A DNA stretch of 64,000 nt from Nymphaea colorata (Eukaryota > Streptophyta > Magnoliopsida > Nymphaeales > Nymphaeaceae): the NCBI RefSeq assembly GCF_008831285.2, contig NC_045139.1, positions 5,120,704-5,184,703 on the forward strand, read 5' to 3'. The notes under the pieces are model-generated. The model was not told the origin of the DNA. It worked only from the letters and a program-made list of their open reading frames with translations, and did not search any database. Positions 3,336 through 33,772 of this stretch are shown here, in pieces. The translations under genes were made by a program, and so were the position numbers. The stretch's first letter is position 1. Every line of letters starts with the position of its first letter.

Positions 3336-4171
3336 TTTTTAAAGAAAAAGACAACATGTGGATTTGAACGTTGAACCTCCTACATGACCATTCGAAAAAT
3401 CTCATTTTTCTGATAAAACAAGTGCCAAATGCTATGCAGTTAACTCAGATACGCATTCATGGTGTGCATACGCGCAAATGAACTCGATATACATAGACAA
3501 TAACATCAGGCCACAACATTTCATGTGTTTGGAAGGAGTAAGTTCACTAGAGTAATACAAAATGCAGCAGATCTTATGTATTGTATTAACTCTTAGAAAC
3601 ATATCAAGACACGAGAAAATATACTTAAAGTTATTAGAATTGTTGCTAAAATTTGACACTAAACTTCACAATCTTAGAGATTAGCTATTGAACAAAAATA
3701 TTGAAGAATATCAATGGAGTAAAATATTGAAGAATCTATTCAAGAATTAAGTAAAAGACTTAACACAAAAATTCCCCACTCTACGACATGTTGTGGGCTC
3801 ATTTATTTCTTGCCATCTCCCTAATGTACCACGAAACAACTAAGACTATAATTTTATGGGTTGTTTGGCAATAGGAATAGCAACATACTGTTTCACGTAT
3901 CTACCCTAAAAATGGAAGCACATACGAAGTATTATAATATAGCGATTCATGAATCTATAACAATATTTCTGGTAGATAGGTAGAACAATATTTTGCAGTC
4001 GTCCTTGTCAAACAGTCTCTTAAAAGAATCTGCATGTCCAAAGGTCGCCAAAAGAAAACTATGTCTTCTCAATAACATTGGGTTTAAAGGATGTTCTCTC
4101 AAGCAAACACTCAAAGAGGCCTTCGCTTTGCCCCTATCGTGTTCATCTAACAAAAATGCTTCATCCTTTAT

Positions 4172-4595
4172 AGGGATGTCAATGAATTGGATTTAGATTG
4201 GATATATCGTTAATCATATCCGTTTTTTCAAATATTCACATATTCGGATTCGAATCAGATTAAAATTCAAATAAAAAAAGTTCATATTCAAATCTGAAAT
4301 CCAATTTTACAATCTGAATCCGATACGAATCCGATTTTTATATTTATATCTGAATCCAAATCCGAATTTTGAATCGGATTTTGCCAATTTTCAAAAATAC
4401 AAGATATCTGAATCCAAATCCAAATCCGATCGGATATTTATATATAACTGAATCCGAATCCGATCGGATGTCATTTATTAAATCCCAATCCAATCCGATT
4501 TCTTAATGGGATATTAATTTTTTTTTTCCATATCCGATTTTTTTGGATCGGTTCAGTCGGATATCATATTCAAATTGGATATATTGACATCTCCA
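4172..4595. mobile_element. MITE family 2 copy (GGGATGTCAAT inverted ends)
   Basis: The element begins 'agggatgtcaat' and ends 'attgacatctcc', so its ends are inverted. The inside is made of repeated 'aatccgaatccgat' type words. The flanks ATCCTTTA (left) and ATCCTGTA (right) match at 7 of 8 positions, a likely target duplication. It has no coding capacity. At least seven relatives occur in this window. Confidence 0.65.
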
Positions 4596-5265
4596 ATCCT
4601 GTACCATCTTTTAAGTGGAAGTCCACAAAGCTGCTTCCAAGATGTGAGGTGTTTAATTGCATCTTATCTTCGTCTCTCAAGAGAAACCTCGTCGTAGTAG
4701 ACCTTGACTGGAAATAAACTATAGTTAGTAAACCCGTGACTTGGACTCAGATCAAGAGATGATCGGGTCACTGGGTCAGCGAGTTGACTCATGAACACGG
4801 CCAAGTCAGATAATGATTTTTTTAATGTATTCTTACAACATAGAGTAAAGGGAAAATTTTTAATGCAACCGAGTCTGGCGAGTCAGGTAGATTCCGGGCG
4901 AATCAGGGTCGACCCTCGCAAAGTCCGGCTGAGGATATGAACGAAGATTTTGAAACTTGTTTCAGATATTACAGTTGTTTCTAACGATGTTGCGCCTAAC
5001 CATAGGTGATTAATAACAATTTACTAATTAGAAAATGACATCTTATAATCTAATGCATCATATTTTCCATTAATTGCCTTCCCCTTGAGAAACTTCCGTT
5101 ACTCGGTCGACCTGCCTTGTAAGCCACGGCTCTTAGAAAGTCGGAACATAACAACGGGAGCTGTAAGCTGTCACTAATTAAATCAGTCATCTAATCAGCA
5201 CAACATTGTGGAAATTGTCCTGAAAGTCATAGAAAATAATAGAAGTGGAAAAAACCTTGTTGACT

Positions 5266-5446
5266 ATAATATATATATATATATATATATATATATATAT
5301 ATATATATATATATATATATATATGTATATGTATATATATATATATATATATGTATATGTATATATATATATATATATGTATATGTATATGCATATATAT
5401 ATATATATATGTATATATATATGCATATATATATATATATATATAT
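5266..5446. repeat. Compound TA/TG microsatellite
   Basis: About 180 bp of TA repeats is interrupted by short 'tgtatatgtata' and 'gcatat' variants. Long Tyr-Ile frames on both strands across it are artefacts of the dinucleotide repeat. It lies in the 5' spacer of neprosin copy A. Confidence 0.95.
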
Positions 5447-30181: not shown

Positions 30182-32097
30182 GTTCTTCTTTTGAAGGGAT
30201 CCGCTTTTAAAGCCTCGGGGGCGTAGAATAGCTGGTCAAGTAAAGTATCTAGCAACATATAGATGGTTTGTTTATGCTTCGATTCTAGTGGGTATTCTAG
30301 TGGGTACACTAATTTGAGCGGCAAAAGGTGAGGGTGCATCGAGTTGAAGGTGGCCCACTGCTCAATTAGGCTCCGACCCAGTACAGGACCTTGGAAGCAA
30401 AGAGAGGCTCTCACGTAAGACTGATATGCTTTTAAGAGATCTGCATCTTGATACAAACAAGTCTTCTTAGATATTGAACTCAAGTTCCTTAATCCACATC
30501 CTTGCTTTTCTTTTCTTTTCTTTTTTTTTTAACGTGCTCATTTATGCATGAAATAGTTTAAAAGAAAAATTGCACTAACAACAACATTTTGAAAGCCAGG
30601 TATTTCCATCCTTAAATGGGGACAGTCAGCCGCGGCTGTTCGTGTATTGGACGGTAAGCACTCTCAGTGTTTCTGTACTACTTTTTTCTATATCCCTCGC
30701 AAAGATTTTCTTTTCGTGCCCAGTTATGTCTTGTAGACCCAGACACTATTGTTGATTATTTTTTATCTAATTTATTTAATCTAAGATTTAAGATCTTGGA
30801 TTCGGCCTTCTCTCACCTTTTCTCAATGGAAAATGGTAAAATGATAGTTTTAAGTGTCAATCTTCATTTGATTTATGATGCTCACTTAGATGAACTACAA
30901 ATCTTATTTGGTCACATCAAACCGTGGATCGAAAATCTGAAGTAATCATAGATGCCATTGTAACCTCCTACATGGTTTCCTGGTAAATGGCGTTTCCTAC
31001 TATCCGGCTATCCGGCCAAAGGCTGAAGCCCTCACTCAACTCTTTGTCTCCCTCTAAAATACAACACCGTTGAAAATTTTAGGCACAAAGTGGCAGGACT
31101 CCGACATATTATGATACTTCATTGTAATACATCCGAGTTAATTTGGTCAGAGTTTTAATTAATTCATATAGTCTATTAATTGATTGAGTTGACAAGATAA
31201 CTCAATTGATATTTCCTATGATAAGGTATAAGGTAGAGTTTGGATGACATTCCTTGAAATAGTATAATAGTGTCATGTGAAAACCATGTTTTGAAAAAAC
31301 GATTTTTAAAGTAGTTTTTAATAAATGGTTTTGATATTGAAATTCATTTTTACAAAGAGCCTCAAGAAACTAGAAAAGGGAAGTTTTAAATTTTTAGAAA
31401 TCTGTGAATGAGTATCCCTCCGAAAAATTTTTCTGAGTTCCGCCACTGATATAGTGGTGCAAGTATATTGAAAATCATAAGATAAATAGGTTTATACGCT
31501 CAAACGAAAAAACTTATACGTTGAAACTTTTGGTCATATAATATCAAAACAACCGTATCAAATTGCAGAGAGATAATTACGGAAGCACAGGATGCTACAA
31601 TCTCAAGTGCCCCGGATTCGTTCAAGTGAGTGATCAAATATCTCCAGTTATGGCGATATCCCCAGTTTCAGCATATGAAGGCGAACAATTATTCATCGAT
31701 CTTCTAGTCTTCAAAGTGAGTGCAGTTGTTCTTTTCTATATTTATTTTTCTTATAAAAATATTAAATGACAATTTTTACCGTGAATTGCAAAATTTAAAT
31801 AGAAAAGTTGGTGCCTTGTAAACTGTCAATAAAAGTTGATCAAACAACTCATTGATCAATTAATGAACACATTGGCAGTTGGGAGTGGGTCCACAGTTTG
31901 ATATGGGACTTATGAACTCCTCTTCAGTCTTGACTCCTGCAAGAAACAGCTGTGTGGAATTTTCCTACAATTGGCAAAAGATTCAACGGAAGCCCCCAAA
32001 TATAAGTCTGTGTGGCCAAGTTTTCTTTTTAAACTACATTTAGGTTGAGAGATTTTATTGCTTGTTCAAAGGTGCAAGACCTTAGAAGGAGTATCTG

Positions 32098-32440
32098 GAT
32101 GTCAACTGATCAAATTCGAATTAAATACACTCTTAATCATATCTACTTTTTCAGATATCCATATATTTGGATTTCGAATTCGGTTTCAAATAAGAATGAA
32201 GAAAAGTCATACTTGGACCTGAATCTGAATTTAAAATCTGATCCAAATCTAATTTTTACATTTATATCGGAAATCCAGCCAGTTTTGAAAATGTAAGAGC
32301 ATTGGATATAAGATGTTTACTTGAAATTAAATATGAATTTGGTCGGATATGTATGTATATTTGAATCTCATCTAATGTTATTTCTTAAATTTGAATCTGA
32401 TCTTATTTCTTAATGGGAGATTAATTTTTTAGAAACAATA
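32098..32440. mobile_element. MITE family 2 relic in intron 6 of copy C
   Basis: It begins 'ggatgtcaactgatc', then has 'ttaaaatctgatccaaatc' words shared with the A and B relics. The right end is lost, and the intron here is shorter before exon 7. Confidence 0.55.
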
Positions 32441-32886
32441 TCATGATGAAATTAGATATGGAACAGGTCCATCAACCAAAAGTTGCTATGAAAGAAAAGG
32501 ACAGACGAAATTCTCTGTCCATAGGATGCTGAGAATGTGACGGCATATACGTGGGGTGTTGGCCTAGTAGTCTTTTCACAACCCTTGCAGCCGCAGCAAA
32601 TTTACTGGAATGGGGAGGGGAGGTGTCCAGGTGGGCCAACGGCCCCCGCCTGGCCACCAAGATGGGAAGCGGCCATTTTCCGAGCGAAGGCCGCGACGGC
32701 ATATCTTGCTCTGTGAAGAACATTGAATGTTTGAATGCAACAACCAATGCCTTCGTCCAGCCAACTGCTGCTGTTGCAGTCGCAAAAGTCAGGAATTGCT
32801 ATGATATCAATAATGTTGGCAGCACGGCCACTGATGGATATGTCATTTACTTCGGGGGGCCAGGCAAAAGCGATATATGCCAGTGA

Positions 32887-33772
32887 AAGAGTTTCACTGC
32901 AGTACTTGCATCTTCTGTAGCGGGCTCTTCTGATAATCTTAGATTATCATCAATAATGTTGTTCTATGACAACTATTCACATATATATGATGTAACAATT
33001 TAAGTACTTTTTAGACTCGTGTTGTAATACCCCATACTTTGATATGTTTAGTTATGTGAGTTTAGTCATGTGTTAGAAAGAAAAAGAGTAGTGAAGTGAT
33101 TGGTTGTTCTGGTTCATAATTTCTTTTTTATGAAGAAGATTAAGATCTGTTGGTCTCTCGAGCCCCATATGAATGGAGTGAGTCGAGTCGTTACATTCTT
33201 CCTTTTGTATTTGGGCTTACTGTCCCACTGCTTTAAAGTTTGTCATGATTTTAAAGAAACGTGAGCCTAAGCAGAGCAAAGCACAGTAAATGAATGAAGG
33301 AAAAGAGAAGGAAGAAGAAGAAAGCCATGCACCTAAGCATACTTTTGACTACTAAAACCATTAATGAACTCTTTAACACTAATTTAGCCAGTGGAAGATG
33401 GCTTCATCTACATCGCAATCACATGAACCTACAAAAAATTGAAGCAGAGACAAACCGGAACCCCATTACAAGACCTTGAATTTTAAACCTTCGTTTGACT
33501 CAAAACCCAAATGTTCATTTGCAGTGAAGGTTAGAAGCGACATATCATTTTTCTAAGCACCAAAACAATACAATAACAGAAAGGAAACATACTGAAATAA
33601 TTTAGAAAATAGCAACAAAGTTGGAAGAACAATATAGGAAAATGAGAGGACAGGAATAAGTATGCCATCTGAAACAGAAGGAGAAAAACAAGGGCATCTT
33701 GCTGAGCAAGTTACAGAGCAAAAGACCAATTCAAACACAAGTCCACCTGGTGTTCAGCCTCGCCAGATGAGA
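32887..33772. other. Downstream flank of copy C and right edge of the array
   Basis: DNA to about 33.5 kb matches the 3' flanks of copies A and B. After that the sequence is unique and leads into the 3' end of the next gene, which lies on the other strand. The two genes are therefore convergent. Confidence 0.5.

Follow-up and report, generated by a model that had tools for sequence, protein, structure and literature searches.

A tandem array of three neprosin-like peptidase genes in Nymphaea colorata, with a probably chimeric middle copy

How did three neprosin-like peptidase genes come to stand head to tail in the genome of Nymphaea colorata, and do they share a single history? The window, i.e., the whole stretch of 64,000 nucleotides that was analysed (C2:5120704-5184703, contig NC_045139.1), belongs to a 407.8-Mb assembly of 783 contigs and carries three such genes, named A, B and C, with seven coding exons each on the + strand. 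Our comparisons of sites and of noncoding divergence reject a single history, since the closest pair of copies changes along the repeated unit. They suggest, with a probability of about 0.7, that a tandem duplication was followed by an intragenic unequal crossover which would have left a chimeric middle gene (B), with later patches of exchange. The parts of the array are as follows.

5925..11475, + strand: copy A, 382 amino acids, exons 5925-6065, 6180-6266, 7658-7831, 8640-8804, 9362-9415, 10401-10547 and 11095-11475 (exon search, translation, Pfam)
15572..22222, + strand: copy B, 383 amino acids, putative chimera, exons 15572-15712, 15829-15915, 17014-17187, 19063-19227, 19699-19755, 20675-20821 and 21842-22222 (exon search, translation, Pfam, mosaic and noncoding divergence)
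27125..32886, + strand: copy C, probable pseudogene, with exons 1-6 in frame and a frameshift in exon 7, which begins at 32525 (exon search, translation)
3762..5189, + strand: left edge, an intergenic spacer copy that is partial and degraded (self-comparison, noncoding divergence)
11900..14855, + strand: spacer 1, between A and B (self-comparison, noncoding divergence)
22650..25697, + strand: spacer 2, between B and C, with a dispersed repeat (24186-24535) skipped by the spacer 1 match (noncoding divergence, genome search)
33220..33520, + strand: right edge, where a third spacer copy starts and the array ends (self-comparison, noncoding divergence)

Compared with itself by BLAST, the window gave direct collinear matches at offsets of about 9.1-11.5 kb between neighbours and 20.3-21.5 kb for A against C. 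The seven exons of B recur in the same order at three places; last exons lie 10.7 kb apart and first exons 9.6 and 11.6 kb apart. A search with the exons of B found no further neprosin exon in the window, except short matches at chance level. At the left edge, 3762 pairs with 23668 and 3766 with 12894, while at the right edge 33500 pairs with 23318 and 12540, and thus the unit starts and ends at points about 350 bp apart. An earlier note, made from the letters of the window, had described three head-to-tail neprosin genes in an array that begins and ends at nearly the same point of the unit, as expected from unequal exchange, with A and B keeping all exons and both conserved Glu segments and C broken; all of this agrees with our results. 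Its further description of three complete units with both flanks stands for the three genes and the two good spacers, but not for the flanks: the right edge is partial and the left flank is a weak, interrupted spacer copy, in which only 330 of 1331 sites pass the local filter against spacer 1 and 226 of 1345 against spacer 2. The array is thus better described as three genes with two good spacers between them and an incomplete piece at either edge. Likewise, the continuous diagonals that it expected across the spacers are present as collinear matches, but are interrupted at indels and inserted repeats, and also within introns 2, 3 and 5 of A.

Copies A and B are apparently intact, with frames open throughout and GT-AG introns. 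Exon 7 of C measures 362 nucleotides against 381, a net loss of 19 nucleotides near the exon start that shifts the frame before the second catalytic Glu and leads to a stop after 63 codons of this exon. No alternative acceptor that restores the frame was seen by eye in a look that was not exhaustive, and C is a probable pseudogene.

The age of the copies was approached through coding and noncoding divergence. Synonymous divergence (dS, Nei-Gojobori method, gapped codons dropped and exon 7 of C used from 32539 only) is 0.183 for A-B, 0.155 for A-C and 0.212 for B-C (382, 369 and 369 codons, respectively), and the spacers differ by 0.132. These values are not the very low synonymous and intron divergence of a recent duplication, and so the triplication does not deserve the word 'recent' given to it in the earlier note. 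At substitution rates of 2e-9 to 1.5e-8 per site per year, a divergence K of 0.135 would correspond to about 34 to 5 million years and a K of 0.30 to about 75 to 10 million years; judged from the sequences, the copies are not very recent. Divergence is unevenly spread over the exons, since dS for A-B is 0.03 in exon 1, 0 in exon 2 and 0.67 in exon 4, where A-C has 0.14.

Thirty noncoding comparisons by Kimura two-parameter distance (K; identities 0.72-0.95) fall into two ages. The lower class contains the 3' part of A-B (0.133 +/- 0.012), the two spacers (0.132 +/- 0.008), intron 3 of B-C (0.142 +/- 0.010) and the upstream DNA of B-C (0.148 +/- 0.016). The higher class contains the 3' part of C compared with A (0.227) and with B (0.231), and intron 3 of A compared with B (0.300) and with C (0.316). 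In the other introns, distances for A-B, A-C and B-C are, respectively, 0.183, 0.206 and 0.108 (intron 1), 0.262, 0.106 and 0.183 (intron 2), 0.302, 0.231 and 0.227 (intron 4), 0.160 (182 sites), 0.191 and 0.182 (intron 5) and 0.177, 0.258 and 0.230 (intron 6). The right edge is at 0.184 from spacer 1 and 0.179 from spacer 2, and the left edge at 0.246 and 0.362. Alignability follows a similar division: B and C align nearly throughout (1635 of 1711 sites pass the filter in intron 3 and 827 of 853 in intron 5), whereas A aligns with B or C over little of these introns (260 of 785 and 261 of 782 in intron 3; 182 of 878 and 181 of 897 in intron 5). The ~280 bp upstream of the start codon are alike in all pairs (K 0.055-0.084), which may reflect either promoter constraint or conversion.

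The same three sequences were aligned in four ways, two of the alignments being almost the same, and features were tested on three of these alignments. In the first, the local filter keeps 3079 of 4664 shared columns, and the 558 informative sites are shared between the pairs (A-B 186, A-C 209, B-C 163), with 299 changes of label along the unit against 370 +/- 11 in 5000 shuffles (minimum 328); over the four alignments, 279-299 changes were observed against 343-370 after shuffling. Three of the four alignments give, in B coordinates, no clear pair up to 17091, B-C at 17094-18984, A-C at 18985-19570, B-C again at 19571-20532 and A-B from 20534. The first alignment gives A-C at 15968-17320 and 17605-19389, no pair at 19390-20782 and A-B from 20795. 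Counts of sites by feature (A-B/A-C/B-C) are 76/32/34, 78/30/30 and 78/31/32 for intron 6 with the 3' flank, and 11/28/29, 9/16/32 and 9/16/32 for intron 3, a difference with p of 1.8e-6, 2.2e-7 and 4.8e-7 in the three alignments. A single tree for the whole unit was therefore rejected by shuffles, alignments and feature tests, and with it the idea, implied in the earlier note, of one triplication with one history; its appeal to unequal exchange gains support from the mosaic and from the two ages of K. The grouping of A with B at the 3' end appears firm, while that of B with C by sites in intron 3 depends on the alignment. Two places of B deserve to be marked.

20534..20821, + strand: probable crossover zone, end of intron 5 to exon 6, from which A and B are the closest pair (four alignments)
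18985..19570, + strand: exon 4 patch, A and C closest, probably an A-C gene conversion (dS, alignments, site counts)

The two-age pattern and the alignability would both be explained by a single unequal crossover close to where intron 5 ends, with the segment from A to B repeated from B to C. First, an ancestral gene and its flanks would have been duplicated in tandem (K about 0.23-0.32). The resulting two genes would then have crossed over unequally, in the last part of intron 5 or in exon 6, so that the segment running from the 3' part of A through the spacer to the 5' part of C was duplicated (K about 0.13-0.15) and a chimeric gene came to stand in the middle as the third copy. B would thus have received the exon with the first Glu from a C-type parent and the exon with the second Glu from an A-type parent; later conversion between A and C may have affected exon 4 and intron 2, and C would have been lost through its small deletion. 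Tandem arrays of plant gene families can arise by unequal crossover, and the present array shares with them the head-to-tail units, the hybrid middle copy and the pseudogene at the edge, without any difference in kind. B indeed has the features of a hybrid internal copy, firmly so on its A-B side, and on its B-C side through intron 3, the upstream DNA and alignability, with exceptions in introns 2, 4 and 5 and exons 4 and 6.

Several observations weigh against this history. In the first alignment, B-C is called solely at 17332-17604 and its 28 A-C sites in intron 3 tie with 29 B-C sites; introns 4 and 5 show no B-C preference in site counts, and their B-C distances (0.227 and 0.182) exceed the predicted 0.13-0.15, as do, on the A-B side, the 0.160 of intron 5 and the 0.177 of intron 6. 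In intron 2 and in exons 4 and 6 it is A and C that group together, the sister pair of the promoter and exons 1-2 is not steady, the confidence filter removes many sites of A's introns, and no outgroup DNA close enough for the introns was found among 28 fetched loci, whose paralogues are too distant. Introns 1, 3 and 6 fit the crossover, while introns 2, 4 and 5 require A-C exchange or leave the matter undecided, and additional exchange must therefore be added to the model. Support for this history is strong at the 3' end and in the spacers, but patchy within introns 4-5, exon 4 and exon 6. The intron 3 tie in one alignment and the lack of B-C preference in introns 4-5 lowered our confidence in the crossover and raised that in its main competitor, namely simple duplications of the whole unit followed by gene conversion alone. 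Local exchange or constraint does act here, as seen in the A-C patches (intron 2, exons 4 and 6), the near-identical exons 1-2 of A and B and the indifferent introns 4-5. However, the two spacers, the 3' part of A-B, intron 3 of B-C and the B-C upstream DNA are about equally diverged (0.13-0.15), as one crossover predicts, whereas simultaneous conversion across several kb of spacer and introns is less simple; we regard conversion alone as plausible but unlikely.

Two other explanations receive far less credit. Nothing was found in favour of an assembly in which haplotypes or collapsed reads were placed in tandem, and the range of dS (0.155-0.212), the noncoding identities given above and the repeats and deletion specific to single copies make such an artefact very unlikely, and we give it hardly any weight. 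That all three genes are functionless decaying relics agrees with the frameshift of C, but is quite improbable for A and B, which remain open over 382 and 383 codons with a dN/dS (nonsynonymous to synonymous divergence) of 0.28 (bootstrap 95% 0.17-0.44), and which retain the catalytic Glu pair as well as the essential Gln and Trp. The ratios for A-C and B-C are 0.29 (0.17-0.51) and 0.29 (0.19-0.46); note that dN/dS is a pairwise average and no measure of the present constraint on each copy, which also tempers our reading. The unit was also considered as a transposable element and rejected: among the scored candidates (the best 40 of 1179 for gene-body DNA at 15299-19062 and the best 40 of 1594 for spacer 2), long matches occur solely inside the array, and the others are due to dispersed repeats or to short simple stretches within these repeats.

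Membership of the neprosin family is clear for both open copies. Pfam PF03080 (Neprosin) matches A with 250.6 bits (E 1.3e-74) and B with 241 bits (E 1.1e-71) for a curated cut-off of 22, and PF14365 (Neprosin_AP) with 71.4 (E 1.2e-19) and 72.9 bits (E 4e-20) for a cut-off of 39.2, over 77 of its 120 profile positions. A PDB search with B reached Nepenthes neprosin (7zu8) with an E-value of 1.4e-82; up to E 1 it returned four distinct sequences, of which three are neprosin and one (5ie9, E 0.52) is at chance level. Nepenthes neprosin, a glutamic prolyl endopeptidase (7zu8, 7zva, 7zvb, 7zvc, 9qr8), shares the activation peptide and the neprosin domain with A and B. When A and B are mapped onto its numbering through the PDB alignment, using residue roles taken from PMC9343461, equivalents of the catalytic pair E188 and E297, of the essential Q173 and W175 and of Y214, Y208, Y220, H134, C219 and C224 are present in both, while in C the frameshift removes the second Glu. 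The array proteins differ in having His for Y136, His for Q192 and Phe for Y194, and Ser and Arg-Lys stand at the places of the latency-plug Lys118 and of the P128-S129 maturation site, in a weakly aligned linker. The pH activation and proline preference of neprosin are therefore not transferable to A and B untried. At the 136 place, the first residue of exon 4, His occurs in five and Tyr in one of the six paralogue matches that cover the site, and thus His is common there in this genome.

The N-termini of the encoded proteins are hydrophobic by eye. By family homology, A and B would be glutamic peptidase zymogens that carry an activation peptide and are secreted by way of a putative signal peptide; with their two Glu and a bridging water they would cleave peptides, perhaps after proline. 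According to PMC8794472, the same two-domain layout is found in the Arabidopsis LOTR1/HOLO family, a large family of secreted plant proteins with 42 other such members, but LOTR1 acts in Casparian strip positioning and its authors suggest that its activation domain is retained. Compared with A, B has Thr in place of Ser at the site equivalent to 186, carries an additional residue ahead of GDSQP and ends exon 6 with HLL where A has DLI. It is tempting to see in B a natural exon-swap peptidase, with a Glu pair from two parents and a substrate preference maybe unlike that of A, in which case the crossover would have made a new enzyme and not a spare, but we consider this rather improbable.

In the whole genome, the family profile found at least 96 neprosin exon matches, compared with none in 14 control genomes. 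At least 54 of the 96 are terminal-exon matches (those that cover 85 or more positions and extend to profile position 190 or beyond), a count in which a single gene may account for two rows on C7 that lie 694 bp apart, and in which some rows hold stops. Among these, 31 of 54 lie in seven clusters of neighbours within 100 kb, the three of this array included, and the array is thus typical of the family in this genome. A larger nearby cluster was considered and rejected, as the window holds no further exon and the nearest other match on the contig lies ~2.6 Mb away (C2:2.50 Mb). No close paralogue of B outside the array was seen among the 28 fetched loci, where the best exon-7 matches by E-value are 40.6% (L008) and 39.8% (L013) identical and others reach 43.3% (L002) and 53.2% over 62 residues (L010). 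No neprosin tandem array was found in the titles or abstracts among the literature matches listed; in the portions seen, PMC9867145, the single paper that contains the two terms 'neprosin' and 'tandem duplication', has them in unrelated passages and PMC8978399 describes neprosin fragments inside a transposon.

Repeats and other features accompany the array. An AT-rich repeat occurs at 4223-4591, 10639-11007, 21396-21760, 25751-26044, 32125-32430 and 62241-62382, and its insertion is probably older than the array because copies stand at the same place in intron 6 of A, B and C. A dispersed family in both orientations is found at 1886-2275, 6563-6979, 39213-39694, 51265-51694 and 56765-57170, its second copy sitting in intron 2 of A, where the A-C match skips it. 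Two other dispersed repeats, at 16145-16311 (intron 2 of B) and within spacer 2 (see the list above), have many matches genome-wide. Outside the array, 48154-48486 (+ strand) matches a bacterial-type large-subunit ribosomal RNA (87.7 bits, model positions 2090-2634 in 333 bases) and probably represents a piece of organelle DNA transferred to the nucleus. A direct repeat pair of ~1.5 kb each (52581-54077 and 54443-56031) is 81.6% identical, with no open frame over 92 amino acids inside the pair. Pfam pieces of a DUF7054 protein (34037-34366), a SAM (S-adenosylmethionine) methyltransferase (43071-43394) and an exostosin GT47 protein (63143-63697) lie on the - strand.

Altogether, the array represents ordinary family growth and leaves knowledge of the neprosin family unchanged. 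It offers a worked example of growth in a plant peptidase family, through tandem copying, a probable intragenic crossover that gave a chimera and the loss of a neighbour, and A and B form a natural pair for probing the determinants of neprosin specificity.

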